A stretch of 64,000 nucleotides of DNA from Corallococcus sp. EGB (lineage in GTDB: Bacteria; Myxococcota; Myxococcia; Myxococcales; Myxococcaceae). Within the stretch, counting starts at the first letter, position 1. Each line of letters starts with the position of its first letter. Under the pieces are notes generated by a model. It was not told the DNA's origin. It did no database searches and saw only the letters and a program-made list of their open reading frames with translations. The position numbers and the translations under genes were made by a program. Positions 24,139 to 45,561 of the stretch are shown here, piece by piece. The DNA lies in the NCBI RefSeq assembly GCF_019968905.1, contig NZ_CP079946.1, forward strand, positions 7,475,356 to 7,539,355, written 5' to 3'.

Positions 24139-24186
24139 GCTGGGGTGCGGGGGACCCGAGGCGGGTCACTCCAGGCTGGGGGAGCC

Positions 24187-26058: not shown

Positions 26059-27282
26059 ATGTCCTTGTCCCCTCCCCTGCGCATGTCCTTGTCCTGCCTC
26101 CTGCTCCTCGCGGCCGCTTGCGGCAATGCCGGCCCGGGAACGAGCACGGCCGTGGCGGAGTCTCCCTCCGCGTCCGCTCCGGGGACCTCTGTCCAGACGC
26201 CTGCTTCGCCCGCGCCCGTGGAGGACGTGAGCCAGACCCCCACGACCGGGACGCCGGTCGTCACCACGCCCGCTCCCTCGACGAGCGTGTGCTCACCGCT
26301 CAGCTCGCTGACCAGCCTGGCGGGCAACCTGACGACGTGGCTGCAGACGGCCCCCATCACCGCGGCCAACAGCGGCGGCTTCAAGGAGCCGGGCGGCACG
26401 GAGCTCGCCGCGTTCGAGGGCGCCTTCCGCGCGCTGCTCACCGAAGGCCCGACGGCGCAGGGGGTGCAGGACCTGGCGAAGCTGGGCTACGGCGTTTCCA
26501 CCTTCCGCAACGACACGGGCGGCGGCTGGCTGGTGGTGCGCGAGCTGGGGCTGCTGTCTCGCGGCGGCGGCACCTTCATCGTCAACCTGTTCCCCGCGCG
26601 CGACCTGTGGCTGGAGGCGCCGCACGCGGACTCTGATGAGGGCACGCTGCGTCAGACGGCCTCGCAGCTGGTGACGCTGGGCGCTCGCGCGCTGCTCATC
26701 ACCGGCAGCAACCGCTGCGCCGTCACCACCGCCAGCCCGTGCAGCGGCACCACCAGCGTGTGCGGCACGAAGGGCCTGCGCATCTCCGACGCCGCGCACT
26801 ACGGCAACAACTTCTTCACCGCCGCGCACCGCGCGCTGCGCGCCACCTACCCGGACGCCATCGCCGCCAGCATCCACGGCATGGACGCGGGCGATGGCCC
26901 CGAGGCCGCCGTGGTGAGCGACGGCACCAGCGTGCTGCGCCCGGACGCGCTCTCCAACCGCCTGCGTGATGCGCTCAACGCCCACCTGACGGGCACCCGG
27001 AAGGCCTTCTCCTGCAACTCGGCGGAGGACGAGGGCAAGCACCGCACGCTGTGCGGCACCAGCAACGTGCAGGGCCGCATCGACAACGGCGCCGCGGACG
27101 CGTGCTACGCGGAGGCCACCACCGCGTCGGGCCGCTTCGTCCACCTGGAGCAGTCCTCCACGCTGCGCGGCACCGGCGCGTCGTCCAGGGCCGTCATGCA
27201 GGCGCTCGCGGACACCGTGCCCTGCACGCTCGGGGGCACCGGCCTGGGCTGCCCCGCGGTGGTCGCGCAGGACTGTCCGTAA
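26059..27282 (+). CDS. Lipoprotein with putative FGase/PGA-hydrolase-like fold
   Basis: 407 residues; GGAG/GAGG site before the ATG. Signal peptide ends LLLLAAAC (probable lipobox), followed by a Ser/Thr/Pro-rich linker to about residue 75. The enzymatic-looking part contains EAPHADSDEGT (~185), LLITGSNR, AHYGNNFFTAAH, SIHGM (~270), VVSDGT, CGTSNVQGR and FVHLEQSS (~360). The order PH-D-GT, HG, VHLE resembles N-formylglutamate amidohydrolase and phage poly-gamma-glutamate hydrolase metallopeptidases, but I cannot confirm the family. The same pattern recurs in the protein encoded at 33355-34518. It ends 266 bases before the CapC-like gene and may belong to that system. Confidence 0.6.
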   Translation: MSLSPPLRMSLSCLLLLAAACGNAGPGTSTAVAESPSASAPGTSVQTPASPAPVEDVSQTPTTGTPVVTTPAPSTSVCSPLSSLTSLAGNLTTWLQTAPITAANSGGFKEPGGTELAAFEGAFRALLTEGPTAQGVQDLAKLGYGVSTFRNDTGGGWLVVRELGLLSRGGGTFIVNLFPARDLWLEAPHADSDEGTLRQTASQLVTLGARALLITGSNRCAVTTASPCSGTTSVCGTKGLRISDAAHYGNNFFTAAHRALRATYPDAIAASIHGMDAGDGPEAAVVSDGTSVLRPDALSNRLRDALNAHLTGTRKAFSCNSAEDEGKHRTLCGTSNVQGRIDNGAADACYAEATTASGRFVHLEQSSTLRGTGASSRAVMQALADTVPCTLGGTGLGCPAVVAQDCP

Positions 27283-27364
27283 GATGACTCCGCACCCCGG
27301 GCCGCCTCCGCGCGACCTGGGGCCGTGACGCGCCACGCAAGCCGCGTCCACACGGGAGGTCGAG

Positions 27365-27391
27365 CCCGGCTTCTCTTCGCGTGAAGCCGGG
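27365..27391 (+). terminator. Hairpin after the hydrolase-like gene
   Basis: Perfect 9-bp stem cccggcttc (27365-27373) and gaagccggg (27383-27391), 9-nt loop, 83 bases after the stop. No T run follows, so its strength as a terminator is uncertain. Confidence 0.45.
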
Positions 27392-27437
27392 GGCTGATCC
27401 AGGCTGAAGGTCGGAGACCACTGTCCTTGGTTGGGCA

Positions 27438-27452
27438 TTCAGTGACACTGAA
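27438..27452. promoter_or_regulatory. 15-bp perfect palindrome, candidate operator
   Basis: ttcagtg-a-cactgaa is a perfect inverted repeat with one central base, 97 bases before the ATG of the CapC-like gene and inside its only upstream intergenic space. Such symmetry suggests a dimeric regulator site for the whole operon that starts at 27549. No regulator gene is adjacent, so the binding protein is unknown. Confidence 0.4.
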
Positions 27453-27548
27453 GGCTCGGATCATCGGTTGGACAGCGGACGCTTCTTACCCGGTGAGAGG
27501 CCCGACCCTGGTCGCAGAGGAGTGTCTCCCTAGATTCGAGCAGCCACC

Positions 27549-30500
27549 ATGGCGCTCTTTTCGACCCTGACACTCTTCCCGGCCTACTCCCTGGACACCT
27601 CCATCCTGGTGGCGGTGCTCGTGGGTGTACTCATCCTGGCACTCCTGACGGAGACGCTCGGGTGGGTCTTCGTGGGTCTCGTCGTCCCCGGCTACCTGGC
27701 CTCGGTGTTCGTCATCCACCCGGAGGCGGGTTGCACCGTCGTCGCCGAGTCGCTGCTCACGTACGGCGTGGCGCTGGCGTTCTCCAGCGGACTCTCCCGC
27801 ACGGGAGCGTGGAGCGAGTTCTTCGGCCGCGACCGCTTCTTCGCCGTGGTGCTCGCCAGCGTCGTGGTGCGCGCCGTCAGCGAGACGTGGCTCCTGCCCG
27901 TGCTGGGGCACTGGATGGACGAGCGCTGGGGCACGTCCTTCATCGTGGACCGCAGCCTGCACAGCATCGGCCTGGTGCTGGTGCCGCTCACCGCGAACGC
28001 CTTCTGGAAGCTGAAGCTGCGGCGCGGCCTGTGGCAGGTCGCCGTGCCGGTGGCGCTCACGTACGTCATCCTGCGCTTCGTGCTGCTGCCCGGCACCAAC
28101 CTGTCCTTCTCCAGCCTGGAGCTGATGTACGAGGACGTGGCGCAGGACTTCCTGTCCAGCCCCAAGGCCTACATCATCCTGCTGACGACGGCGTTCCTCG
28201 CCGCGCGCTTCAACCTCAAGTACGGCTGGGACTTCAACGGCATCCTCGTGCCCGCGCTGCTGGCGCTCACGTGGCTGGAGCCCTTGAAGCTCGTGGCCAC
28301 GATGGCGGAGGTGCTGCTGCTGGTGCTGGCCGCGAAGGCCGTGCTGTCCGTGCCGGGGCTGCGCACGCTCAACCTGGAGGGCCCTCGCAAGACGGTGCTC
28401 GTCTTCTGTCTGGGCTTCCTCGTGAAGTGGTGCGTCGGGTGGGCCATGGGCGGCCGCATCCCGGGCCTGAAGGTCACGGACCTGTTCGGCTTCGGGTACC
28501 TGGTGCCCACGCTGCTGGCGGTGAAGATGCTGCAGAAGCAGGTGATTGCCCGCGTGCTCCTGCCCACGCTGCACACGTCGCTGGCGGGCTTCCTCATTGG
28601 AAGCCTCGCGGGCTTCGGGCTGTCGCTCATCGAGCCGCGTCCGGCCACCGCGCTCACCGCGGAGGCGCCGCGCGAGCACGTGCCCGGGCTGGGCCTGGAC
28701 CAGTCTCCGCTGGGCCTGATGGTGCTGGGCCGCGCCACCGCGCGTGAGAGCGACGTGGGCGGGCAGTCGCTGCGGCTGAAGCACGGCGACCTGCGCGAGT
28801 ACAGCGCGCTGTGGAACGGGCTGGACGCGTGGCTGGAGTCCGGCCGCGCGGAGAATCCGCACGCGCTGCGCACGCAGGCGGTGGCGCTGGGGCTGGAGCT
28901 CCGCGAGTTGCCGAAGCAGGACGGTGCGCCCGCGCGCTACGCGCTGGTGGAGCGCGTGGAGGGTGACGGCAAGGCGGGCTGGGACACGTCGCTGCTCGTG
29001 CCGGGCGCGAGGGGCCCCATCCTGGAGGTGCCGCGCCCCCTGACGGAGGCGCCGAGCGCCGAGGCCGCCGCCCTCCTGTGCGAGCGCGTGGATTGCCGCG
29101 CCATCATCGTGAGCGGCGTGGACTCCCACCGCGCGGGCCTGGTGCTGGGCGACGCGCTGGCGCAGTCGGAGACGCCGCTGCGCCACGCGCACGACGCGCT
29201 GTCCTCGCGCGAGCGGGTGCAGCTGCGCATGGATCCTTCGCTGAAGCCGGGCCAGGTGGTGCTGCACACGCCGGAGGGCAAGGCGCCGCGAGGCCTGGAC
29301 ACGCTGTGGCCGGGCGCCGAGGTGACGTCGAATCCGCCGCCGGAGCCCGGGGGCAACTGGGGCGAGTCCCGGGTGAGCGTGCTGCGCGCGGGCCCCTTCG
29401 ACCTGGCCTCGCTGGTGGTGGAGCGCGCCCCGGCGCTGGCCGGGTCGATGACGGAGCGCGACGCGCTGGGCACGCTGATGGTGACGCCGGAGGGCGCGCG
29501 CGTGCCGGCGGTGCGGCCGTCGGACGCGGAGCTCCTGGTGCTGGAGCGGCACGTGGCCTCGCCGCTGTTGGGCGGCGGTCCGGCGGACGTGCCGCGCGAG
29601 CTGCGCGTGCGCTGGGCCCACGCCATGGCCTCGTTGATGGGCCTGCGGGTGCGGCCGGTGACGGGGTGCGAGGGCGCGCCCGGGTGCTGGTGGGTGACGG
29701 ACGCGGAGGCGACGCCGGGCCGGCTGGGCGCGGGGCTGCTGGTGCGTCAGGGCGGCTCTCCGCTGGCGCTGGAGGTGCCGTCTCCGGCGCGCGAGGCGGG
29801 CACGCTGCCGGTGGCCGCGGAGCTGTGGCACGAGTCCCGCTCCACCGCGCTGGTGTTCGCCACCGCGTCCGGCGACATGCCCCACCCCGCCACCTTCGGC
29901 GAGCTGCGCACGAGCTTCCAGGCGTTCCATCAGGCGGTGCACCGCGCGCTGCCGAAGGAGCAGGGCTGGGTGCTGCACCTGCGCGGCTTCTCCAGCCGGC
30001 CCTCCGTGGACGCGGACGTGCTGGTGGACGTGGGCAACCCGGTGCTGACCCCGGCGCAGCGGCCGGCGGACCTGGAGCGGCTGTTGTCGCAAGGCGGCCC
30101 GCTGGGCTGGCTGGGGCAGCGCGTGCGCTACCATGACGGCTCTGCGGAGCTGACGGGCCTCAACGACGCGAGCCCGCAGCAGGTCTTCTCCCGCACCTTC
30201 GGCGGGGCGCGGCTGGCCACGCTGTGGCTGTCCGAGCCGCTGCGCGGAGCCTTCGTGGGCCCGCGGCTCGCGGTGGAGGAGCTGGCGCTCACGGGCCTCC
30301 TGCCCGAGGAGCCGCGCGAGTCTCCCGAGCGCGCGCTGCTGGCGGACCGGCTGGTGGCGCCGACGCAGCCGGTGTCATCCGCGCTGAAGGAGCACTTCGC
30401 GGAGCTGACCACCAGCGCGGAGCGCTACGTGGCGCAGCAGAACGTGCATGACCTGCGCGCGCTGGCGCAGACGAAGCGCGTGGGCAACGTGACGCGCCAG

Positions 30501-30734
30501 GTGAAGGCCGGCTTCAGCGCCGAATACGGCCTGCCCTTCCTCCTGGTGGAGGCACGGCAGGGCAAGCAGGTGCTGCGCGCCGTCTATTTCCTTCAGCAGC
30601 AGCCTTCGCCGGCGAAGCGCGCGGAGCTGACCGCGGGTGACGCGGAGCTCGCGAGCACGGTGGACCTGGCGCTGCGGCACCGCCGGCCGGTGGTGTTGAC
30701 CGGGGAAGTCTCCCGCGAAGAGGCCCGTCGATGA
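27549..30734 (+). CDS. PgsC/CapC-like double-domain membrane protein with long tail
   Basis: 1061 residues; PgsC/CapC is normally about 150. The first CapC-like unit (about 15-190) has LTETLGWVFVGLVVPGYLAS, then FGRDRFFAVVLASVV, then SIGLVLVPLTANAFW, matching the order of B. subtilis PgsC motifs. The second unit (about 215-365) repeats it: WDFNGILVPALLALTW, GPRKTVLVFCLGFL, FGFGYLVPTLLAVKML. The remaining ~690 residues are soluble and contain two degenerate copies of the putative hydrolase pattern seen in neighbouring genes (VPRPLTEAPSAEAA near 490 and VPSPAREAGTLPVAAELWH near 740), with the metal-type His replaced. The known PgsC role is partner of the ligase PgsB in poly-gamma-glutamate synthesis. 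The stop overlaps the next start (ATGA). Confidence 0.82.
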   Translation: MALFSTLTLFPAYSLDTSILVAVLVGVLILALLTETLGWVFVGLVVPGYLASVFVIHPEAGCTVVAESLLTYGVALAFSSGLSRTGAWSEFFGRDRFFAVVLASVVVRAVSETWLLPVLGHWMDERWGTSFIVDRSLHSIGLVLVPLTANAFWKLKLRRGLWQVAVPVALTYVILRFVLLPGTNLSFSSLELMYEDVAQDFLSSPKAYIILLTTAFLAARFNLKYGWDFNGILVPALLALTWLEPLKLVATMAEVLLLVLAAKAVLSVPGLRTLNLEGPRKTVLVFCLGFLVKWCVGWAMGGRIPGLKVTDLFGFGYLVPTLLAVKMLQKQVIARVLLPTLHTSLAGFLIGSLAGFGLSLIEPRPATALTAEAPREHVPGLGLDQSPLGLMVLGRATARESDVGGQSLRLKHGDLREYSALWNGLDAWLESGRAENPHALRTQAVALGLELRELPKQDGAPARYALVERVEGDGKAGWDTSLLVPGARGPILEVPRPLTEAPSAEAAALLCERVDCRAIIVSGVDSHRAGLVLGDALAQSETPLRHAHDALSSRERVQLRMDPSLKPGQVVLHTPEGKAPRGLDTLWPGAEVTSNPPPEPGGNWGESRVSVLRAGPFDLASLVVERAPALAGSMTERDALGTLMVTPEGARVPAVRPSDAELLVLERHVASPLLGGGPADVPRELRVRWAHAMASLMGLRVRPVTGCEGAPGCWWVTDAEATPGRLGAGLLVRQGGSPLALEVPSPAREAGTLPVAAELWHESRSTALVFATASGDMPHPATFGELRTSFQAFHQAVHRALPKEQGWVLHLRGFSSRPSVDADVLVDVGNPVLTPAQRPADLERLLSQGGPLGWLGQRVRYHDGSAELTGLNDASPQQVFSRTFGGARLATLWLSEPLRGAFVGPRLAVEELALTGLLPEEPRESPERALLADRLVAPTQPVSSALKEHFAELTTSAERYVAQQNVHDLRALAQTKRVGNVTRQVKAGFSAEYGLPFLLVEARQGKQVLRAVYFLQQQPSPAKRAELTAGDAELASTVDLALRHRRPVVLTGEVSREEARR

Positions 30735-33358
30735 AGACCCGCAGCCGCGCCCTCGTGGCGCTCCTTGGCCTGATGGTGGGCCTGGCCCTCATCTGGGCCG
30801 CGAGCCTCGCCGTGCTGGGCAACACCGACACGCCCACCGCGCGGCGCGACGCGAAGTACATCAACGCCGAGCGCCTCATCTTCTACCGCCTGGAGCCGGG
30901 CCGGGAGATGCGCGTGCGCATCCCCGAGGACGCCGAGGAGCTGCTCATCGTCACGCACGAGCTGCTCCCGGACGGCACGCCCTACGCGCCGGAGAAGCAG
31001 TACCAGTACGGCCTCAAGGCGGTCCTGCGCGGGCCCCAGGGCATCCTGCTGGAGCGCGCCATCTTCACGCGCACGCGCCAGAGCAAGGGCCAGCCGCAGG
31101 AGGACGGGACGTTCCTGCAGGAGAGCGCCTTCACCACGCACGCGGATCAACAGGTGACGGACGAGCGCGAGTTCGTGCTGCGCCTGCCCGCGGAGCGTCC
31201 GGAGTACTCCGTGCTGTACCTCCAGCCCGCGAGCACGAGCGACACGCTGCTCGCGCGGGTGTACGTCCGCGCGCACCGCACGCTGCCGCTGCTCGCGTCG
31301 CAGAAGCTGGCGCAGGCCCGCGCGGAGGTGCGCGCCGGGCGTGCCACCTTCGAGCCGTTCGAGAAGCTCTCCTCCGACACGCGCCGCTGGCTCGCGGAGG
31401 AGCACTGGGAGCGCCTCAACGCGGAGGGCGAGGCGGGCACCGACTACCAGATTGAGCCCGTCTACCGCACCGCGTACCGGCTGCCGCTGGTGGAGGCCAC
31501 CGAGTCCGTGCAGGAGCGCCTGGGCTCCGGCCGCGCCGTGGCGCTCAACGTCACCGGCCCCGCGAAGCCGGTGCTGTGGCTGTGGAGCGACGCGATGGAC
31601 GCGCATCCCCAGCCGCACGGCCCGGTGACGGTGCAGACGCTGTCCTCGGACGGCACGGCGCACACGCTGGAGCTGCCGGGCCCCGTGGCGGGCTCGCCCA
31701 TGTCGCATCCGCTGGAGCTGCCGGAGGGCGTGCACACGGTGATGGTGCGCAACGACGGCCAGGAGGACCTGCGCTACACGGTGGAGGGCCCGTACGAGTC
31801 GTGGCTGCTGCCCGCCGAGTCGCGCCCGCAGCCGGGCGCCGCGTCCGAGGGCCACGTGGCCTTCCTGCCGGACACGCGCCGCACGGAGGCGTTCGCCACC
31901 GGCCCCGCGTGCGAGGCGCTGGAGGTGGACATCGATCCGCGCATGGACGCGGTGGGACGGCTGGTGCGCATCGACGCGCGCACGCTGGACCGCGCGCCGT
32001 CGCACGAGCCGCTGCACCTGGGCCTCACGGTGCTGGATGGCCAGGGCCAGTCCCTGGGACAGGCTTCACTGGACGCGACGCCGGAGCCCGCGCCGTTCGA
32101 GAGCGCGGCCCTGCCCCCGCAGCCCGGAGGCGCGCTGCCGTGCACGCCGCTGGCGACGGCGGCCCAGGACGCGGGCTCGGGCGAGGTGACGGATTTGCCG
32201 GCCTGGGTGTCGGGTGCGGCGAGCGCCCGGGTGTTCCTGCCCATGGGGGCGCGCAAGCTGCGCGTGGAGGCGCCGCGCGCGACCCTCCTGCAGTTCTACA
32301 GCTTCCTGTCGAACGGCCAGTCCGTCACGGCGGCGGCGCCGTACACGAACGACGCGCTCACCGGCGTGCGCTGGCGCAACGCGCCCGTGGAGCAGCGCAC
32401 GTGGTACCCGCTGCGCCCGTCGAACCTGGACGCGCTGATGAAGGGCGGCGCCCGTGTGGAGCTGCTCAGCCAGGTGCGCCTGGAGCCCGTCACCCCGGAG
32501 GAGGAGACGCCTCCGCCGTCGGGCGACGCGGTGGTGGTGCGGCCCTACGGCGCTCCCGCGGTGGTGGAGGTGCTCGAGTCCGCGCAGCCGGACACGGTGG
32601 ACCTGGTGAAGGCGCTGTCCACGATGCTGGAGCCGGGCCGCGCGGTGCGTGCGCGCTTCGACTCGCGCACGCCCACCCGTCCGGAGGTGCGCCTGTCGCT
32701 GAAGGACGCGGCGGCGCTGGGCAACGAGGTGGAGGTGCTGCTCGACGGAGCGCCGCTGCACCGCTTCACCGTGCGGTCCACGCGGACGCGGGAGCTGTTG
32801 CCGCCGCTGCCACCGGGTGAGCACGAGGTGCTGCTGCGCTCTTCCGCGCCGGGGCTGACGGCGCTGCTCAACCGGCCTCCGGCGGCGGGCAACGGCCTGC
32901 GCTCGCGCACGGTGTATCCGGTGAGCCAGGGCGGCCTGCGCGTGCCGGTGCGCAAGACGGGCCCGGGCGCCGTCACGCTCAACGTGGTGGTCTACACCCC
33001 GGAGGCGGGGGGCACGACGGTGCCCCAGCTGGCCGTGACGGTGGATGGTGGCAACCCCGTGCGCCGCGCCAGCGTGCTGGTGCCGCACGTCACGCGCGCC
33101 GAGCGCACGGTGGCGCTCCCCGCCTCCGAGCGCGAGCCGGCGACGCCGGTGGGCCGCCCGGGCGTGAAGTGGTACGCGCGCGCGGTGCCGGTGACGCTGG
33201 GAGAGGACATCGCGCCGGGCGTGCACACCGTGCGCATCCAGGCGCTGGGCTCCGGGCCCATGTGGGCGCGCTTCTTCGTCTTCGGCCAGGCCGTGGAGGA
33301 CACCGCGCCGCGCATGTGGAACCGGGGAGGCTGGCAGCCCGACGAGGACCGGTTGTGA
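30731..33358 (+). CDS. Membrane-anchored beta-rich periplasmic protein
   Basis: 875 residues with one N-terminal membrane anchor (about 7-28, ALVALLGLMVGLALIWAA) and a large extracytoplasmic part. No family is recognised. The pattern is beta-sandwich-like with repeated PG-turn strand motifs (LELPEGVHTVMVRNDG, LPPGEHEVLLRSS, IAPGVHTVRIQALG), like carbohydrate- or polymer-binding modules. The start overlaps the stop of the CapC-like gene and the stop overlaps the next GTG, so it is locked into the operon. A plausible job is a periplasmic adaptor holding the polymer or bridging the inner-membrane synthase and the barrel protein (inference). Confidence 0.7.
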   Translation: MKTRSRALVALLGLMVGLALIWAASLAVLGNTDTPTARRDAKYINAERLIFYRLEPGREMRVRIPEDAEELLIVTHELLPDGTPYAPEKQYQYGLKAVLRGPQGILLERAIFTRTRQSKGQPQEDGTFLQESAFTTHADQQVTDEREFVLRLPAERPEYSVLYLQPASTSDTLLARVYVRAHRTLPLLASQKLAQARAEVRAGRATFEPFEKLSSDTRRWLAEEHWERLNAEGEAGTDYQIEPVYRTAYRLPLVEATESVQERLGSGRAVALNVTGPAKPVLWLWSDAMDAHPQPHGPVTVQTLSSDGTAHTLELPGPVAGSPMSHPLELPEGVHTVMVRNDGQEDLRYTVEGPYESWLLPAESRPQPGAASEGHVAFLPDTRRTEAFATGPACEALEVDIDPRMDAVGRLVRIDARTLDRAPSHEPLHLGLTVLDGQGQSLGQASLDATPEPAPFESAALPPQPGGALPCTPLATAAQDAGSGEVTDLPAWVSGAASARVFLPMGARKLRVEAPRATLLQFYSFLSNGQSVTAAAPYTNDALTGVRWRNAPVEQRTWYPLRPSNLDALMKGGARVELLSQVRLEPVTPEEETPPPSGDAVVVRPYGAPAVVEVLESAQPDTVDLVKALSTMLEPGRAVRARFDSRTPTRPEVRLSLKDAAALGNEVEVLLDGAPLHRFTVRSTRTRELLPPLPPGEHEVLLRSSAPGLTALLNRPPAAGNGLRSRTVYPVSQGGLRVPVRKTGPGAVTLNVVVYTPEAGGTTVPQLAVTVDGGNPVRRASVLVPHVTRAERTVALPASEREPATPVGRPGVKWYARAVPVTLGEDIAPGVHTVRIQALGSGPMWARFFVFGQAVEDTAPRMWNRGGWQPDEDRL

Positions 33359-34518
33359 GGTCCCTCGGGAGGACCGGGTCGTGGCGCCCGCTGGTGGCAG
33401 CGGGAGTGCTGTCCGTGCTGGGCGCGGGCGTGAGCGCCCGCGCGCAGGCCGCCCCGACCGCTGAAACGGCCACGAGCGCAGAGACAGCATCGAGCGCTGC
33501 GGCGATTTCGAGCGCCGCGACGGTCGCGAAGCCCTCGAAGCAGGACGAGCGTCGCTCCGGCAAACGCGCGAAGGCGACGCCGCGCTCGGCTCCGGAGCGC
33601 GTGCCCCAGGAGGACCCCACCGTGAACGTTCCCGAGCAGTCGGGGTGCCGCGTGGACGCGCGCTTCTCCGGGCTGTGGCCCCGCGTGGACGCCGTGACGT
33701 TCCACCCCACCACGCTGGAGGAGCGGGCCGCGTTCACGAAGCTCGTGCCCGCGCTGCTGGCCGCCGCGCCGAAGCAGAAGGACGTGCCGCCGGAGCTGAC
33801 GAACGTGGCCGCGGCCGTGGGCTTCTTCCTGGAGACGTGGACCACGCCGCGCGACACCTTCTGGGTGCTGCGGGAGCGGCCGGACCGCTACCACGGCGCG
33901 GGCGCGTATGTGATCCGCACGGGCGCCGCCACGGACGACGTGGTGCAGGTGCCCCACCCCTACTTCGACATCGGTACGGAGGACATCGGCTCCGCCATCT
34001 TCACCTGCCCACCGGAGGGCCGCGCGCCGCGCCTGTTCATGACCGCCACCGCGCACCGCTACAAGGCCGCGCCTGATGAGACGCAGGAGACTCCGGAGCA
34101 CCCGGCGGACGTCGCGCACAACCCGGAGCACCTCTTCCAGACCGTGACGGACCTGGCCGCGCGCCAGCTCCCGCACATCCGCGTGGTGCAGCTGCACGGC
34201 TTCGGCGAGACCAAGGTCCAGAAGGGCCGCACGGAGACGCTGGCGGCGGTGGTCAGCGACGGCACACGCAAGCCCGGCACGTGGGCGCGCAAGGTGGCCG
34301 CACCGCTGGAGGAGGCGCTCGGCCCTGGAGTGAAGCTGTTCCCGACCGGGGCGCAGGTGCTCGGAGGGACGCAGAACGCGCAGGCCCGTCTGCTCCAGGC
34401 GTACCCGCAAGCCCGCTTCCTGCACCTGGAAATGTCATCCCGTACGCGCAAAGCGCTGGCGAGCCCGGCGCAACTCGCCCTGCTGGCCCAGATTCTGTTC
34501 GCACCCTTGGAGGACTGA
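33355..34518 (+). CDS. Secreted putative polymer hydrolase (FGase/PGA-hydrolase-like)
   Basis: 387 residues from GTG 33355, overlapping the upstream stop (GTGA). Signal peptide ends SARAQA, followed by an Ala/Ser-rich linker to about residue 80. The catalytic-looking part has QVPHPYFDIGTED (~196), FMTATAHRY, DVAHNPEHLFQ, QLHGFGET (~280), VVSDGT, LGGTQNAQ and FLHLEMSSR (~355). This parallels, block by block, the lipoprotein at 26059-27282. The His/Asp/His/Glu order suits a metal-dependent amidohydrolase. In a polyglutamate-type system it could trim or release chains, as PgdS, CapD or PghP do elsewhere; substrate is inferred from context only. Confidence 0.65.
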   Translation: MRSLGRTGSWRPLVAAGVLSVLGAGVSARAQAAPTAETATSAETASSAAAISSAATVAKPSKQDERRSGKRAKATPRSAPERVPQEDPTVNVPEQSGCRVDARFSGLWPRVDAVTFHPTTLEERAAFTKLVPALLAAAPKQKDVPPELTNVAAAVGFFLETWTTPRDTFWVLRERPDRYHGAGAYVIRTGAATDDVVQVPHPYFDIGTEDIGSAIFTCPPEGRAPRLFMTATAHRYKAAPDETQETPEHPADVAHNPEHLFQTVTDLAARQLPHIRVVQLHGFGETKVQKGRTETLAAVVSDGTRKPGTWARKVAAPLEEALGPGVKLFPTGAQVLGGTQNAQARLLQAYPQARFLHLEMSSRTRKALASPAQLALLAQILFAPLED

Positions 34519-34524
34519 GCGCCG

Positions 34525-37500
34525 ATGTTTCCTGTTCGACGCCGCGCCCGTTACACCCTGCTCGTGGGAGCGCTCGCGGCGCTGCCCGTCATCGCGCAGC
34601 CCGCCGTTTCGCAGCCGTCCGTCATCGCCCGCAGCGAGGAGGGCATGACCTGGCAGCCGCGGGCCATCCGCGGTCCGGTGGCGCTGGCGGAGCTCCAGGG
34701 CCACGCGCCCTATGTGCCCGGCGGCGTGCCGCAGGCGACGGGGGCCATGGAGGTCACGCCCCAGAAGGGCGCGGCCGTGTGGCTGGGCCCGCTGGACGTG
34801 GTGCGCGTCACCGGCCCCGCCGGAGCGCTGCGCTTCACCCGCGTGCCGCTGTCGGAGGGCGACGAAGCACCCGAGCTGCGCGTCGAGGAGGAAGGCGTGC
34901 CCGAGCGCCCAGGCCGCTGGTACCTGGCCGAGCCCATGGGCGCCGGCAGCATCTGGTGGGTCACGGCGACGAAGAACGCCCGCATCCTGGTGGAGCGCCC
35001 CACGCACACGTCCACGGCGCGCACCGAGGAGCGGATGCGCGACGCGATCCTCCAGTGGGTGGACGGCAAGGGCCCGCGCCCGGCGCTGGCGTTCGACGCG
35101 GCCACGCGCGCGCGGCTGGACGTGGACGCGGCGCTGGAAGCGGAGCTCGTGAAGGACGAGCCCGAGTCCTCGCCCTTCCGGACCGCGGTGCGCAACTGGC
35201 GCAAGGCCTCCGCGCTGCGCGAGTGGGCGCTGGTCTCTCCGCTCTACGGACAGGCGGTGCGCGTGGAGCGCCCGCGTCCCGCCGGCACGGAGGTGGTGCT
35301 GGAGGGAATGGATTCGCCCTGGTTCCGCCCGGAGGTGAAGGGTTCGGTCTGGGCCTTGGAGCTGGAAGGTCCGGGCGTGCTGTCGCTGGAGGCGCGCGCC
35401 GTGCTGGGCAATGGCGCGCCGGCGGAGATGCCGACGCTGGAGGTGTACGGCGTGGGCGGGGTGCTCGCGCAGGCGCAGCTCACGCCGCAGCCCGCGTGGG
35501 CGGAGGCGCCCGAGGGCGCGGCGCTGCCGGACGCGCGCACGGCGCGGGTGCTCGCGTCGGGCGAGCGCGTAGGCATCGCGGAGGAGCTGCGCGTGGCGCT
35601 GCCTCCGGGCAAGCACAACTACCGCGTGAGCTGGAAGGGAGCCGCGCCGCTCGTGCGCGCGCGTGTCGCGTCCCGCCGCCCGACCCTGTCCGAGGCGCTG
35701 TCGCACCAGACGCACTGGACGGAGCTGGCGGAGACGGCGTGGGAGGTGGTGAAGCAGGACCCCGCCGCCCGTCCTTCGCTGCTGCGTCAGCGGCTGGTGA
35801 TGCTGATGCCGGACCTGGCACGCGGCACGTACGGCCGCATCAAGACGGAGGGCCTGTCGCCGCTGCTGACGGCGATGGCGGCGCTCGGTGACAAGGACAC
35901 GGACGTGGCGGTGCATGCGCTGAAGGGCGCGGACGCATCGCCGCTCGCGTGGCACCTGCGGCTGCTCACCGCGAAGCAGTTGTTGGACGCGAACAAGCCG
36001 GACGTCGCGCACGCGCTGCTGGGTACCGCGCCCGCGCTGCCGGACGCGGGCTTCCTCACCGCCGAGGCGTCGGAGCTGGTGGCCCGGCTGCCGCTGGGGG
36101 ACCCGCTGCGCAGCCGCGAGCTGGCCGCGCTGGAGCTGGCGTGGCGCGCGGAGCCACTGTCAGAAGACATCCGGCGCAGCTACCGCGCCGCGTGGTGGCG
36201 TGCGAGCCGCTGGTCGCAGGTGACGCCCGCGCCCCGTGATGACGGGACCGAGGTGAAGGCCTCGCAGTGGCTGGACCTCCAGGGCATGGAGGCCGACGCG
36301 TCGATGGCGGCCAGCGCGCTGTGGCCGCTCGCCGCGGGAGGCACCACGCGCGTGCAGGCCACGGGGCTCGCGGAGGCCCCCACCCTGCTGCGCGCCTACG
36401 TGATGACGCCGCCGGGCGCGAAGGTGAACCCGGTGCTGCGCGTGGGGAACAGCACGTTCCCGCTGCTGCCGCTGTCGGCGGTGGAGCCGGTGGAGATTGC
36501 GCTGCCTCCGGGCGAGCACGCCCTGAAGCTGGAGGGCGCGGAGGGCACGCGCGCGTTCCTGTCGCTCGCGCCCGCGCGGATGGATGGGACGCCGGGCGAA
36601 GTGGGCTACGTGCGCTCGCAGTGGCCGGTGAAGGTGGAGAAGAAGGCGGTGCGCTTCCGGGTGCCGGACGCGAAGCTGCCCTCGCCGGTGCGCGTGCAGC
36701 TGCGTCCGTTGAACGCCACCGCGGGCAAGCCGCTCGTGGTGCGCATGAACACCGACGTGGGCCATCCGCGCCGGCTGGTGCTGATGCCGGGCGCCGCCAG
36801 CTCGCGCCACGTCGCACTGGAAGGTGCGAAGGGCATCTCGTCCGCGCCGGTGTCCGCGGTGGTGACGCTGCCCGCGCAGGCCCGCGAGGTGTGGTTCGAG
36901 CCCGAGGACCCGAAGGCCCAGGTCGCCGTCTCGCTGGCGGTGCGCCGTGCGGAGGTGGCCACGCCCGAGACGTCCCCCGACGCACGACAGCCCCAGCAGG
37001 CAGGCACCGCCTACGAGACGCTCCAGGCGCTCTCCCGCACGCTGCGCGCGGAGCCCGGTGAAGTCGAGCCGCGCCTCACGCGCGCGGAGCTGCTGTCATC
37101 GTTGCAAGAGGACGGCTTCGCCCGCGCGGACGTGGGCCGGCTGCTGGACACGCAGGCGAAGCTGACGCCGGAGCAACAGCGGCGCCTGCTCGCGCTGATG
37201 GACCGCCTGGCGCAGGTGTCCCCGCGCACGGTGCGCTTCGCGCAGGCCATCACGCAGCCCACGCTCGTGGCTCCCGCGTTCCCGGCGCTGAACGTGGACG
37301 GGGCAACTGCCGCCAACGGCGCCTCCGCGCGCAGTGGCGCCACGCAGGGTATCGGCGCGACCCGCGACTGGCCGCAAGACAACAGCACGGCCACGCAAGG
37401 CGACGCGGCGGATGCCCGCTCCGCGGAGCTTGGAGCCACGTCCCTCGCCTCGCTCAGCGCCCTGGTGCGCGACGGCCATGGAGACGCGGCGCTCGCGGCG

Positions 37501-39654
37501 GTGTCGGGCGACAAGAGCCTCGCGGGCCGCTACCTGCGCACCCGGCTGCTGTCCGCCTCCGGTGAGGACGCGGCGGGAGCGCTGGCCATGGCCGCGCTGT
37601 ATCGAGAGACGGGCCTGCCGCAGGTCGGCCTGGAGGCGCTCGGCATGCTGGCGCGCCTCCAGGACTCGCCACAGGCGTGGAAGGACGGCGGTGCGCCCCT
37701 GGGCGCGGCGCTCGCGAGCCAGCTCCAGACGTGGGCGGACCACCCGGACGTGCGCCGCATGCGCTTCGCCGCGGGCCGCTGGACGCGCTGGGAAGGACTG
37801 CGCGACGCGGAAGAGGCCGCGGGCTCGCTCGTCGCCACCTCCGAGGCAGCAGCGGACGACGAGGACGTCGCCATGGCTGTCCGCAAGGCGCTGCTCGCGC
37901 CGCCGTGGAAGCTGTCCGAGGCGAAGCTGCTGCCCGCCGGTGCCTCGCGAGTCATGAGCCTGGTGGTGAAGCAGCCCCGGCCCCTGGGCGCGGAGGTCCT
38001 CTGCGGCACCACGCCGCGTCCGGGCGTGGACGCCGCCGGCACCTGCGCCTTCGCGCTCCGCGTGGATGGCCGCGTGGTGCGCGAGCTCCAGGTCGCCGAA
38101 GGCGAGACCGCCATCCTGGGCACGCGCCTGGACGTCCCCGGGCGCCACCAGGTGGAGGTCGTGATGGCGCGCGCCGACACGCAGCAGACCGGCCTGGTGC
38201 GCTTCGTGGACTCCGAGGACGCCAGCGCCACCGCGCGCGTCGTGGCCGCCCCGCAGCCCCTCTCCCTCCTGCGCAGCCGTCCGGGCGCGCCGGTGGTGAT
38301 GACCGTGCTGGGCCCCACCGCGCTTCGCGTGCGCGCCACCGCCCTGGCCCCCACCGCGGGCCGCGAATTGCTCGTGCGCAGCACGCCGCTGCCCTTGGGT
38401 GAGGGCACGGGCGGCTCCAGCGCGGAGGAAGGCCCGCTCATGCACCTGGGGCTGCCCGAGGACGCCGACCCCAGCCTCCAGGGCGCGCCCCAGCCGCTGG
38501 GGCGCATGGGTGAGACGTGGCTGCTCCTGCCCTCGCGCGGTCCGCACCGCGTGAGCCTGGAGTCCCCCAAGGGTGAAGCCCTGGTGCAGGTGCAACTGGG
38601 TGTCGCCTCGGATCCGAGCGCGCTCGCGGCCCCGACGTGGGCCCAGGGCACCACGGGCCTGGAGCCGCTGCCCTGGCCCGCGCTGCCTCCGGGCCTGGCG
38701 CTCCTGCCGGAGGGCATGCCGCCCGAGGCGCGCACCGGCGGCCTGGGCATGGTGTCCGCGGAGCTGGGCTACCGCAGCGAGGACGTGCAGGAGGGCGAGC
38801 TGCTCAACCGCCCGCTCCAGACAGGCCTGGAGGTCCGCCTGTCCCTGCGCCGCGAGCTGTCCCCGGGCCGCGCGTGGCTGCGCTTCACGCCCGAGGCGCG
38901 CTACCCGCTGAACCAGACCGCCGTGCTGGGCGGCACCGTCGCGGCGTACGTGAACCAGCTCCCCGGCGACCTGCGCCTGTCCATGCAGGGCTCCGTGTTC
39001 TCGCAGACCATCGACGGCGCGATGCGCTGGAGCGCGCGAGGCCACGTGGGGGCGGACCGCTACGTGCGCCTGTCCCCGGACGTGGGCCTCATCCCCGGCC
39101 TGGGCCTGACGCTGGAGTCCATGCAGGGCGGCCACGCGGTGGAGGCCAGCCGCTACGACCAGAACGTCTACTGGCTCTACGGCAAGGACCACCCGAGGCG
39201 CCTGTCGCCCCGGCTGTCCCTGCGCTGGCAGCCCTTCCAGGACCACGTGGCCACGCTGGGCATGTCCGCGACGAGCAACGCCAACATCTACACCGTGGAC
39301 AACGCGGGCGCGTACGCGAGCTGGGCGGCGCTCCTGGGCGGAAGACTCCAGGGCACGCGCGTGGAGCTGGGCTACGGCGCGTCGCAGCGCTTCCAGGATG
39401 AGCACCGCGCCACGGCCTACCTGCGCCACCGCGTGTCGGGCCGGCTGGATTGGAACCTGTGGATGGGCAAGGGCGGCAACCGCCTCATGCTCTTCGCCGA
39501 GGACCGCGCGTTCCTCTCCGGCCCGTACGGGATGCAGAACGTGTTTTCACTCGGAGCGCGGTGGGATTGGACGGGTGGACGTGGGTTGCAGGACGTCACG
39601 CCCACCGAGGAGGAATTCGAGGAGCTGCTGGATGAACGACGTTTGCAGCCCTGA
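34525..39654 (+). CDS. Giant outer-membrane beta-barrel protein, candidate polymer exporter
   Basis: 1709 residues with signal peptide (LLVGALAALPVIAQPA). A very long periplasmic part (about 30-1400) mixes beta-sandwich strands (VVLEGMDSPWF, LPPGKHNYRVSW) with helical repeat stretches (about 390-560 and 850-1080; ALSHQTHWTELAETAWEVV, LLRDGHGDAALAAV-type). The last ~300 residues (from about 1405) alternate hydrophobic and polar residues in short strands (TGLEVRLSLRREL, WLRFTPEARYPL, TRVELGYGASQRF) and end near FSLGARWDW, like the closing strands of an outer-membrane barrel. No family recognised. It begins six bases after the hydrolase-like gene. The size and layout recall BcsC/PgaA exporters (helical repeats plus barrel), so it may export the polymer (inference). 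Confidence 0.7.
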   Translation: MFPVRRRARYTLLVGALAALPVIAQPAVSQPSVIARSEEGMTWQPRAIRGPVALAELQGHAPYVPGGVPQATGAMEVTPQKGAAVWLGPLDVVRVTGPAGALRFTRVPLSEGDEAPELRVEEEGVPERPGRWYLAEPMGAGSIWWVTATKNARILVERPTHTSTARTEERMRDAILQWVDGKGPRPALAFDAATRARLDVDAALEAELVKDEPESSPFRTAVRNWRKASALREWALVSPLYGQAVRVERPRPAGTEVVLEGMDSPWFRPEVKGSVWALELEGPGVLSLEARAVLGNGAPAEMPTLEVYGVGGVLAQAQLTPQPAWAEAPEGAALPDARTARVLASGERVGIAEELRVALPPGKHNYRVSWKGAAPLVRARVASRRPTLSEALSHQTHWTELAETAWEVVKQDPAARPSLLRQRLVMLMPDLARGTYGRIKTEGLSPLLTAMAALGDKDTDVAVHALKGADASPLAWHLRLLTAKQLLDANKPDVAHALLGTAPALPDAGFLTAEASELVARLPLGDPLRSRELAALELAWRAEPLSEDIRRSYRAAWWRASRWSQVTPAPRDDGTEVKASQWLDLQGMEADASMAASALWPLAAGGTTRVQATGLAEAPTLLRAYVMTPPGAKVNPVLRVGNSTFPLLPLSAVEPVEIALPPGEHALKLEGAEGTRAFLSLAPARMDGTPGEVGYVRSQWPVKVEKKAVRFRVPDAKLPSPVRVQLRPLNATAGKPLVVRMNTDVGHPRRLVLMPGAASSRHVALEGAKGISSAPVSAVVTLPAQAREVWFEPEDPKAQVAVSLAVRRAEVATPETSPDARQPQQAGTAYETLQALSRTLRAEPGEVEPRLTRAELLSSLQEDGFARADVGRLLDTQAKLTPEQQRRLLALMDRLAQVSPRTVRFAQAITQPTLVAPAFPALNVDGATAANGASARSGATQGIGATRDWPQDNSTATQGDAADARSAELGATSLASLSALVRDGHGDAALAAVSGDKSLAGRYLRTRLLSASGEDAAGALAMAALYRETGLPQVGLEALGMLARLQDSPQAWKDGGAPLGAALASQLQTWADHPDVRRMRFAAGRWTRWEGLRDAEEAAGSLVATSEAAADDEDVAMAVRKALLAPPWKLSEAKLLPAGASRVMSLVVKQPRPLGAEVLCGTTPRPGVDAAGTCAFALRVDGRVVRELQVAEGETAILGTRLDVPGRHQVEVVMARADTQQTGLVRFVDSEDASATARVVAAPQPLSLLRSRPGAPVVMTVLGPTALRVRATALAPTAGRELLVRSTPLPLGEGTGGSSAEEGPLMHLGLPEDADPSLQGAPQPLGRMGETWLLLPSRGPHRVSLESPKGEALVQVQLGVASDPSALAAPTWAQGTTGLEPLPWPALPPGLALLPEGMPPEARTGGLGMVSAELGYRSEDVQEGELLNRPLQTGLEVRLSLRRELSPGRAWLRFTPEARYPLNQTAVLGGTVAAYVNQLPGDLRLSMQGSVFSQTIDGAMRWSARGHVGADRYVRLSPDVGLIPGLGLTLESMQGGHAVEASRYDQNVYWLYGKDHPRRLSPRLSLRWQPFQDHVATLGMSATSNANIYTVDNAGAYASWAALLGGRLQGTRVELGYGASQRFQDEHRATAYLRHRVSGRLDWNLWMGKGGNRLMLFAEDRAFLSGPYGMQNVFSLGARWDWTGGRGLQDVTPTEEEFEELLDERRLQP

Positions 39655-39706: not shown

Positions 39707-42700
39707 ATGAATAGCTCTGGCCGCGACATGCACCTGGCGAACGAATCTCTCGAGGCCCAACTGCTGGAAGCCCTGCCCCCGCTGCACCGCCGCGTGCGCG
39801 GGGCCTCGGTCGAAGCCCTGGCCCGGCGGCTGTTGGAGTCGTGCCCTCGCCCCGCGGGACTGGAAGGACTGGCGCCGTGGCTGGGCGTGGCCCTGGAGGC
39901 GCTGGAGGCGGAGCTGGCGGCCATCCACGCGGAGATCGTCCAGTTCACGCGCCAGCACAACGACGCGCACGATGACGCCGCGCGCCGCCAGGTGCTGGTG
40001 GATCATCTCAAGGCCACGGTGAAGGACCGCAAGGACCGCAAGGAGGACCTGCGCGCCCTGGACCGGTGGATGGGCTTCGACGCCCTGCGCGAGCGCCAGG
40101 AGAAGCGCCGCCACAAGCTGCTGATCGAAGAAGAGACCGCGCTCCGAGCGCTGGCGGGGGTGCTCGCGAAGGCCTCCGCACGGGAGCTCCAGCCCGCCGC
40201 CGTGCCGCTGGCGAGGCAGCTGCTGGACCGCGCCGTGGACGCGCCCCGGGCACAGAACCGCTTCGCCGCGCTGGAGGCGTTCCGGCAGCTCGCGCAGACG
40301 GTGCCGGGCGTCGCCGCGTCGCTGCCCGAGGTGGAGCCCACGCTGACGAGCCTCGCGGGCCAGGAGGACGTGAGCCCGTTCTTCCAGGCGGAGGCCCTGC
40401 GCGCGCTGCTCACGGTGGACGCGCTCACGGGCCTGGCCCTGCTGCGCCAGCGCCTGCGCGCGAAGGCGCCGTCGGAGAAGGACTTCCTCTTCCGCCGCCA
40501 GGTGCTGGACCAGTGCGCGCCGCTCCTGTCGGAAGAGCACCGCATGCCGCTGCTCACCGAGGTCGCGCACCACGACCCGAGCGAGTACGTGCGCATGGGC
40601 CTGTGCGCCCTCATCGCGCAGCGTCCGGACGGACAGCCGCTGCTGCGCCGTCTGGCGGGCCTGGAGTCGATGCCGGCCGTCGCGGGACAGCCGCCGTCGG
40701 AGCCCAGCCCGCGCGTGCGTACCGCCGCCGTGCTGGCCGCGGTGGAGGCGGCGCTCGCCGCGCCGAGGGTGAAGGCCGCGGCGCTCCAGGTGCTGGTGGA
40801 CGTGCTGGGCCGGGACACCTCGCCGCTCGTGTTGCGAGTGGCGTGCGAGCGCGCCGCCGCGCTGGCGGAAGCGCTGGGCGCAGCCGGTCTGGGCCCCGCG
40901 CACGCGGCGCTGCTGGACGCGGTGGAATCACTGACGACGCAGCCGGGCGCCATGGGCCCGGTGGTCGAGGCCGCCGCCGCTGCCGCGCAGGTGCTGCGCC
41001 GGGTGAAGGACCCCGTGCGTCAGGCATGGACCGCGTTCCTCGCGGGCCGCGTCTCCAGGCTCCGCCCGGGCAGCCGTACGCGCATCCCGCTCCAGCCCAC
41101 GCCGGAGAACCTGCCGCCGCTGCCGGAGGGCCCCGCGTGGCTGGGCGCCATCCTCGCGGACCTGTCACAGGACGGGCACGGCCTGTACGCGGAGCGCACG
41201 GACAAGACGCTGACGCTGTGGCACGGCGACCGGCAGGAGCGCCGCCTGTGGCGCATGTGGCACGAGTGGGGCCGCCCCGCGCCGAACAAGCGCCAGGCGT
41301 TCCTGCACACCACCGGCCGCGTGATGTCCGGCACCCTGCGCGCGCACCCGGGCCACCTGGACGAAATCACGGAGACGCTGGTCCCCGGCGAGCGCGTTCA
41401 CGTGGCCAGCCAGGGCAGCTGGGGCCGTCACCTGCCCACGGTGGATGACCTGCTGGACATGCCGCTGTCGAAGGACGGCAAGGTGCATCTGTTCAGCAGC
41501 CACGGGGAGACGGTGCTGGTGCCGCCCGCCTCACGCCTGCGCCGGCTGACGAACCGCCTCAAGGTGTCGAAGGACTACCGGAAGCTCGCGTCGCTGCGGC
41601 TGGACTCGCTGGGCGGCGAGGAGCCCCGCGAGCGCCGCCGCTTCGTGGAGCAGGTGGAGCGCGAGCTGGGCGTCCAGGTGCGCTTCACGCCCTACGGCCA
41701 GAACAAGCAGGTCCCTTCTCCGCTGGCCACGCTCTTCCACGAGCCCGAGGCCGCGCCGAAGCCCACGTCCACGCTGCACTCGCCCGCGGTCGTGGGCCTG
41801 CAGAGCGGATTCCTGGCGCTCCTCACCGAGCGCATCATGGAGAACGAGGGCTACTTCCTGGGGATGGGAGGCAACGGCATCGCGGCGCTGGGCCTCTTCA
41901 CCGCGGCGCTCTTCTCCATCTTCCTGGGCGACACGTACGTGAAGCGCCAGAACGTGCGCAAATCGCGGGAGAAGATTCCGCTGGTCATCGGCGGCTGGGG
42001 CACGCGCGGCAAGTCCGGCACGGAGCGCCTGAAGGCGGCGCTCTTCTCCGGCATGGGCTTCGAGGTGTTCGCGAAGACGACGGGCTCGGAGGCGATGTTC
42101 GTGCACAGCGCCCCGGGCGCCGGGCCGTCCGAGTTCTTCATCTTCCGCCCCTACGACAAGGCCACCATCTGGGAGCAGAAGGACATGGTGGAGCTGGGCG
42201 CGCGCCTGGGCACGGAGGTCTTCCTCTGGGAGTGCATGGCGCTTCAGCCCAACTTCGTGGAGCTGCTCCAGAACGACTGGATGAAGGACGACTTCGCCAC
42301 GTTGACCAACGCCTATCCGGACCACGAAGACATCCAGGGCCCGGCGGGCATCAACGTCGCGTCCGTCATCACCAACTTCATGCCCAGGGGCGGCCGGGTG
42401 GTGACGACGGAGGACCACTTCCTCCCGCTCTTCAAGCAGGCGGCGAAGGAGAAGGACACCACGCTCCTGCACAGCGCCTGGTGGGAGGCGGAGCTCATCC
42501 CCGAGGAGTTCCTCGCGCTGTTCCCCTACCGCGAGCACCCGCGCAACATGGCGCTGGTGGCGACGCTGGCGGAGCAGCTGGGCGTGCCGCGTCCGTACGC
42601 GTTGGCGCTGATGGCCGAGCACGTGCAGCCGGAAATCGGCGTGTTGAAGGTCTTCCCTCCGGCGAGGGTGCGCGGGCGGCAGCTCACCTTCATCAACGGA

Positions 42701-44367: not shown

Positions 44368-45561
44368 ATGGAGGAGAGTCCCATTACGGACGCGGCGCTC
44401 GGGGACCGCGTCCCCTCCCGCCCCCGCCCCACCGCGGTGGAGGCCGTGACGCGCGGGCGCGTGGAGCCCCTGCGCGTGGAAGAGATCCGCGGGCTTCCCG
44501 CCTTCGACGCGCTGGCGGCGGAGTGGAACGCGCTGGTGAAGCGCGTGGACGACCAGGTGTTCTACCGGCACGAGTTCGTGCGCTGCTGGATTGAGAGCTT
44601 CGCGCCCGGCGCGGCCCTGCGCATCCTCGCGGCAAGGAACGCGATGGGCACGCTGGTGGCGGTGCTGGGGCTCCAGGAGGAGCAGGGCCACCAGTACGGC
44701 GTTCCGGTGCGGCAGTTGTCGTCGCTGACGAACAAGCACTCCTGCCGCTTCGACCTCGTGGCGGACGAGCCGAAGCGGGCCGCGGTGGCCTTCCTGTCGC
44801 ACCTGATGGGAGACCCGAGCTGGGAGGTGCTCCGGCTGTCGGACGTGCCGGAGGGCGGCGCGGCATGGGAGCTGCTCCACGCGGCAAGAGGCGCGGGGAT
44901 GCCCTGGGGCGCGTGGCCGAGCGCGCGCTCACCGTACCTGGTGCTGCCATCCACGGTCGCGGCGTGGACGAAGGGACGGAGCAACGCGAAGCCGCTGCGG
45001 CGCAGGCGCAGGCGTCTGGAGGAGAAGGGCCGCGTGGAGGTGGAGCGCGTGTCCGGCGTGGAGGGGCTGGACCCGAAGCTGGAGGAGGCCTTCACCCTGG
45101 AGCAGAGCGGCTGGAAGGCGCAGGAGGGCACGGCCATCGCGCAGGCGCAGCACCGTCGGGTTTTCTACACGGGGCTCGCGCGCACGGCGGCGGAGCGCGG
45201 CTGGCTGGGGTTGTACTTCCTGCGACTGGACGCACGTCCGATTGCGTTCCAATACGGGCTGCAATACGCCGGTCGTTATCTCGCGATGAAGCCCGGCTAT
45301 GACGAGGCGTTGGCGGAGGTCAGTCCGGGCCAACTTCTGACCGAGAGCCTTGTCCAGGACTGTATTGCAAGGGGCCTGAACGAGCTGGACTTGTTGGGGG
45401 ATGACGCCCCTTACAAGCGCGAGTGGACAGAGCACGCGCGGCAGCATCATTGGCTGTTCATCTACCGTGATACGTGGATGGGGCAGACGCTGCAACGTTC
45501 AAAGTTCCGCTGGGCTCCAGTGGCGAAAAGGATGGTGGGCAGATGGGTCCGACGGCGCTGA
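44368..45561 (+). CDS. FemAB/BcsL-like GNAT acyltransferase
   Basis: 397 residues; GAGGAGAG ribosome site before the ATG. The second half has the Acetyltransf_6 (CelD/BcsL, BioF2-like) pattern: KPLRRRRRRLEEKG, LEQSGWKAQEGTA, RRVFYTGLA, LDARPIAFQYGL, MKPGYDEALAEVSPGQLL and DLLGDDAPYKREWTE. Relatives transfer acyl or aminoacyl groups during polysaccharide or peptidoglycan modification. It starts 35 bases after the ligase gene and overlaps the next gene by 19 bases. A tailoring role on the operon's polymer is inferred. Confidence 0.82.
   Translation: MEESPITDAALGDRVPSRPRPTAVEAVTRGRVEPLRVEEIRGLPAFDALAAEWNALVKRVDDQVFYRHEFVRCWIESFAPGAALRILAARNAMGTLVAVLGLQEEQGHQYGVPVRQLSSLTNKHSCRFDLVADEPKRAAVAFLSHLMGDPSWEVLRLSDVPEGGAAWELLHAARGAGMPWGAWPSARSPYLVLPSTVAAWTKGRSNAKPLRRRRRRLEEKGRVEVERVSGVEGLDPKLEEAFTLEQSGWKAQEGTAIAQAQHRRVFYTGLARTAAERGWLGLYFLRLDARPIAFQYGLQYAGRYLAMKPGYDEALAEVSPGQLLTESLVQDCIARGLNELDLLGDDAPYKREWTEHARQHHWLFIYRDTWMGQTLQRSKFRWAPVAKRMVGRWVRRR

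Follow-up and report, generated by a model that had tools for sequence, protein, structure and literature searches.

The gamma-PGA hydrolases PghP and PghL (YndL) belong to family PF05908 and occur in phages. In PghL, H41, E46 and H102 bind zinc, E165 is catalytic and R171 holds the polymer; the R171S variant is inactive (PMC6506827). N-formylglutamate amidohydrolases (FGases; PF05013) are cytoplasmic catabolic enzymes. In the gamma-PGA synthase of Bacillus, PgsC/CapC contributes a PF14102 membrane domain beside the PgsB ligase. The Corallococcus locus described here also places a PF14102 protein beside a PgsB-type ligase domain, but the PF14102 domain is present twice and continues into a tail of about 700 aa that carries two putative pseudo-hydrolase modules, m1 and m2, and capA/pgsA is missing from the locus. 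Two further genes encode the predicted hydrolases HydA and HydB, and sequence comparison supports HydA, HydB, m1 and m2 as four copies of one hydrolase-related domain. A literature search of open-licence papers found no paper on a CapC-pseudo-hydrolase fusion.

The source genome is a single contig of 9.43 Mb, and the window, which is the whole 64,000-nucleotide stretch analysed, lies at 7475356-7539355. Judged by the locus, its nearest named relatives are Corallococcus species. The genes are ordered as kumamolisin-like protease, HydA, CapC-like P0002, P0003, HydB, P0005, PgsB-like P0006 and GNAT P0007, with the following features in window coordinates:

26059..27282, + strand: HydA (P0001, 407 aa), predicted exported hydrolase, from the BLASTP/profile match to HydB and invariant orthologue residues
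27549..30734, + strand: CapC/PgsC-like P0002 (1061 aa), CapC membrane part in duplicate, followed by the tail (PF14102, E 2e-45)
27549..28631, + strand: CapC membrane part, P0002 aa 1-361 (two PF14102 matches; hydropathy)
28776..29498, + strand: putative pseudo-hydrolase module m1, P0002 aa 410-650 (hhalign, in register)
29499..30323, + strand: putative pseudo-hydrolase module m2, P0002 aa 651-925 (hhalign; residue table)
30324..30731, + strand: tail end m3, P0002 aa 926-1061, hydrolase relation not detectable (P 0.32)
30731..33358, + strand: P0003 (875 aa), N-terminal membrane anchor, without known family
33355..34518, + strand: HydB (P0004, 387 aa), predicted exported hydrolase (AlphaFold2 model, structural matches, invariant columns)
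34525..39654, + strand: P0005 (1709 aa), exported syntenic partner, Pfam match absent
39707..44332, + strand: P0006 (1541 aa), PgsB-type amide ligase domain (TIGR04012) at aa 734-1082, with long extensions at both termini
44368..45561, + strand: P0007, GNAT-fold acyltransferase (PF13480)

Gene order between the protease and P0006 is the same in 9/9 Corallococcus-group regions fetched and in a second genus of Myxococcaceae (G027); Pyxidicoccus keeps it from HydA to P0006. The position of P0003 between CapC and HydB is conserved. The GNAT gene of G027 stands upstream of the protease, unlike in the Corallococcus group. No relatives of HydB were found in 24 other genera sampled within the family. 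The kumamolisin/S53-like protease gene (24145-25950) lies directly upstream of HydA and accompanies the cluster in both Corallococcus and G027. P0006 is PgsB-like, matching positions 5-340 of 380 in TIGR04012 (E 3e-63) with 213.8 bits, below the equivalog cut-off of 222.7. Its PgsB domain is located mid-protein; another myxococcotal locus (L080) has the N-terminal part and PgsB as separate genes, and a gene of size similar to P0005 at the equivalent place. By eye, the C-terminal 250-300 aa of P0005 resemble an outer-membrane barrel, a feature that an exporter might have.

The initial annotation described an ordered set of blocks shared by the proteins at 26059-27282 and 33355-34518. Open reading frames with these ends are present and both carry the blocks, although the block given as THR reads TAHRY in HydB. 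By sequence, HydA and HydB are homologues (BLASTP E 9e-8 over 277 aa; orthologue profiles prob 97.8, E 9e-13). HydB starts at a GTG (33355) that overlaps the stop of the preceding gene and is ATG in most orthologues. The N-terminus of HydA is lipoprotein-like, with a lipobox-like motif (LLLLAAACGN), and that of HydB has a signal-like sequence. The predicted zinc and catalytic residues of HydA are H189, D193, H273, E364 and R370; in HydB H201, D205 and H281 are predicted to bind zinc, E359 to be catalytic and R365 to contact substrate. The Glu-Arg pair (E359/R365 in HydB, E364/R370 in HydA) is conserved in all full-length family members. Near-invariant in 24 diverse members, taken from Myxococcota, MAGs of Planctomycetota, Deltaproteobacteria and Xenococcaceae, and an Erythrobacteraceae genome, are PH...D..T, R, D.AH, F, HG, S.G, L.GT.N.Q, H.E and R. 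Members in Streptomyces clavuligerus, S. finlayi and Corynebacterium ureicelerivorans were added by tblastn of plasmid records. The family occurs in at least the Myxococcota, Alphaproteobacteria, Planctomycetota, Cyanobacteria and Actinomycetota, and most members found lie next to pgsB/capC.

Pfam, NCBIfam and PHROGs gave no meaningful match for any member scanned, PDB sequence searches with HydA and HydB returned chance matches only, and a viral scan for PghP found nothing. PF05908 matches 0/24 members at E<=1, none of them reaches the Pfam cut-off for PF05013, and both families are absent from the source genome. Assignments to MelC1, DDAH and SslE were rejected, the hmmscan rows being weak and at chance level.

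The AlphaFold2 model of HydB aa 95-387 (pLDDT 90.3, pTM 0.92) is predicted to have the fold shared by N-formylglutamate amidohydrolase, PghP and zinc carboxypeptidases. Its closest structural matches in VIA-align are the FGase-family structures 2odf (Z 14.5) and 2q7s (Z 13.2), followed by PghP 3a9l (Z 12.4), YndL/PghL 5onj (Z 12.2) and 21dc (Z 11.9); the rmsd to 3a9l and 5onj is 3.3-3.6 over 171-176 residues. M14-type carboxypeptidases rank lower, with Z near 11. HydB H201, D205, H281, E359 and R365 follow the residue order of PghL with an identical Glu-Arg spacing of +6, an equivalence taken from motif order and a weak local profile alignment. Profile comparison with PghP, proposed in the initial annotation, aligns LHG, N and LE...R at matching positions; the match is local and weak (P 0.063 to 0.005), and membership in PF05908 was not adopted on that account. 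Fold, His...His zinc pattern, LHG motif and a QLE/HLE with Arg at +6 are common to PghP/PghL and the HydB family. PghP/PghL have H-x4-E where the HydB family has H-x3-D, and the latter shows no Pfam score, has extra N-terminal helices and is encoded beside synthase genes, with degenerate fused copies. Its putative zinc pattern is His-x3-Asp plus His, D205 being Glu in one member (L079), and differs from the classical M14 motif His-x-x-Glu. Unlike the FGases, HydB is predicted to be exported, and it lies in another gene neighbourhood.

The membrane part of P0002 (PF14102, 154.3 bits, cut-off 27) is a tandem of two PF14102 units (E 4e-24 and 7e-23). Such tandems also occur in relatives from Alphaproteobacteria, other Myxococcota and Xenococcaceae. 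By hydropathy the transmembrane segments precede residue 361. The loop at 326-335 carries positive charge and precedes a single helix, suggesting a periplasmic tail. In one myxococcotal locus (L082:7806-10357, G126), CapC and tail are two overlapping ORFs, reflecting a split gene or else a frameshift in the assembly.

Two blocks related to the hydrolases had been noted in this tail near residues 490 and 740, with the His lost; they were located at 493-507 (EVPRPLTEAPSAEAA) and 742-760 (EVPSPAREAGTLPVAAELW), where Arg 496 and Ser 745 both map to HydB H201. Direct BLASTP of the tail against HydA and HydB gave nothing significant, only a weak in-register segment (E 0.49), and shallow genus-only profiles gave a suggestive but weak match; deeper sets settled the question. 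Module m2 matches the hydrolase profile in hhalign over its full length (230 columns, prob 97.0, P 1.2e-10), and more strongly with the bridge sequence L088 added (prob 98.8, P 1.2e-16). This partial Planctomycetota CapC tail (499 aa) scores up to 75 bits against hydrolases and up to 61 bits against the P0002 tail in BLAST, and its blocks LEVPYPVTD, GASRYAN, LQLRGF and CWLSREVR are intermediate at every block. Module m1 matches about 110 columns in its N-terminal half (prob 52-69, P 4.6e-5 to 1.4e-4) and also m2 (prob 74, P 2.7e-5). The register agrees in three pairings (496 with H201, 496 with m2 745, 745 with H201). Among the controls, 33 decoy segments gave a best P of 0.044 against the hydrolase profile, reversed profiles 0.29-0.64 and, for each module, 100 shuffles of its columns a best of 0.019-0.044; all controls together, including decoys from neighbouring proteins, stayed at P 0.011 or worse. 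The expected relation of the four segments is supported for HydA with HydB, over full length for m2 and over the N-terminal half for m1, in which a whole hydrolase fold is probable. Treating m3 as a fifth copy was rejected.

A shared fold in predicted structures, also anticipated, is well modelled for HydB (pLDDT 90), and the tail model (pLDDT 61.7) is consistent with it for m2, weakly so at such low confidence. Foldseek found no match for this model; VIA-align gave Z 5-6.6, nearly all to zinc-carboxypeptidase-like structures and on m2, as supporting evidence only.

The tail modules had been described as apparent pseudo-enzymes, and the replacement of zinc His and catalytic Glu proved alike across phyla. 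In m2 of P0002, H201 is replaced by S745, H281 by R812 and E359 by W893, with G813 and R899 retained. The H201 position holds S, T, A, V or Y in Myxococcaceae and Planctomycetota tails, the second zinc His is Arg in 14/15 sequences (a gap in the remaining one), the catalytic Glu is Trp in 15/15 and the substrate Arg is kept in 12/15. The m1 zinc-His position is Arg 496 in 11/11 tails of the Corallococcus/Pyxidicoccus group, the second half of m1 being unaligned. In the tree, m2 copies from Myxococcota, Alphaproteobacteria and Planctomycetota group in a single clade with support 98.9/100, and the HydA-like and HydB-like proteins encoded by these genomes fall outside it, which indicates that the dead copy is ancient rather than a product of recent decay. 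m2 and HydB are under selection of similar strength (dN/dS 0.25-0.72 and 0.29-0.67, respectively, rough as absolute values owing to codon bias). Sequence comparison supports m2 as a pseudo-enzyme, a homologous domain in which the loss of catalytic residues is shared across lineages.

In other lineages, hydrolase genes adjoin CapC and/or PgsB-like genes in Erythrobacteraceae (L075), Myxococcota (L078, L080, L082) and Xenococcaceae (L077), the last with the order HlyD-PgsB-CapC-hydrolase and a CapC without tail. In S. finlayi the family gene adjoins a CapA family protein, with an annotated pgsB two genes further, and in S. clavuligerus a PgsB-like ORF lies <6 kb away. No pgs-type neighbours were seen for L076, L079, L081, L083 and the Corynebacterium protein.

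On balance, the cluster probably encodes extracytoplasmic gamma-glutamyl-type hydrolases that act with a PgsB/PgsC-type synthase, and pseudo-hydrolases, fused to CapC, that would bind or guide the chain. The data show homology, catalytic-residue loss, conservation of these losses and synteny; the polymer chemistry, the hydrolytic activity of HydA and HydB, the periplasmic side of the tail and the chain binding are inferred. In such a trans-envelope poly-gamma-glutamate-type system, PgsB-like P0006 would join amino acids and the duplicated CapC would move or expose the chain. HydA and HydB would, as zinc amidohydrolases with the FGase/PghP/M14 fold, cleave a gamma-linked polyamide, setting its length, releasing chains or clearing misplaced polymer. 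Modules m1 and m2 would be ancient degenerate copies that lost the zinc and general-base residues and kept the fold and the glycine that neighbours the second metal ligand; m2 would also have kept the arginine position that anchors the substrate. This retention without catalytic residues makes it most likely that the tail binds the emerging chain, uncut, or partner hydrolases. The source genome has six CapA-family genes, 0 of them in the locus, and CapC at this locus only. Taken with the export signals of HydA and HydB and the probable periplasmic side of the tail, this favours cutting by HydA/HydB with holding by the tail. That the dead depolymerase copies in CapC are a polymer-gripping or length-sensing device replacing CapA/PgsA in at least three phyla is a tentative extension, itself rather doubtful. 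Against the main reading are the H-x3-D third ligand, the weak PghP profile match, the low-confidence tail model that Foldseek could not match and the members with no pgs genes seen nearby; PgsB-like ligases could also use other substrates.

Pairing of a dead with an active paralogue is a common pseudo-enzyme role. The tail might accordingly be a scaffold only, dimerising with or docking active HydA/HydB at the synthase without touching the polymer, much as inactive paralogues can regulate an active partner; active and dead copies do occur together in every tail-bearing locus read whole. Ligand binding would instead fit the R899 position, which the tails of Myxococcaceae and Planctomycetota keep, though it is Ala/Ile in the two alphaproteobacterial tails and so not decisive, and we regard a pure scaffold as unlikely. 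Somewhat less likely still is a polymer other than gamma-PGA, with HydA and HydB acting as peptidases or as peptidoglycan amidases that share this fold. The HydB model does match M14 carboxypeptidases and the MpaA amidase (Z 10-11), but FGase and PghP rank higher, the Glu-to-Arg distance of +6 is that of PghL, and a PgsB/CapC/CapA neighbourhood recurs in several phyla. Least probable is a chance match of m1 as an unrelated alpha/beta module, with m2 the sole hydrolase relative: the short alignment and modest hhalign probability of m1 would allow it, but 100 shuffles reached 0.019 and decoys 0.011 at best, far above the P values of m1, its register agrees with m2, and its predicted helix-strand order resembles HydB in the low-confidence model.

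The chain-binding reading suggests that dead enzymes are reused to hold or guide a growing chain. A domain that descends from a cutting enzyme, sits on CapC and has been inactivated by identical substitutions in several phyla is a candidate chain-binding element open to experiment, relevant to PgsC/CapC chain handover across the envelope and to the setting of chain length. The unannotated, putatively active HydA/HydB family marks probable polyamide clusters in Gram-negatives, cyanobacteria and actinomycetes.

Within this family, HydA at 26710-26715 has Asn in most Corallococcus/Pyxidicoccus sequences (SNRC) where most members have His (THRC), and one HydA orthologue (L029) has His before the invariant Arg. 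G027 carries a third, stand-alone HydA-type copy (L083:8723-10027), with pgs genes absent from the 20 kb read. In the 738-aa plasmid protein of Corynebacterium ureicelerivorans (L094:834-3050), the hydrolase domain follows a long Ala-rich coiled region.
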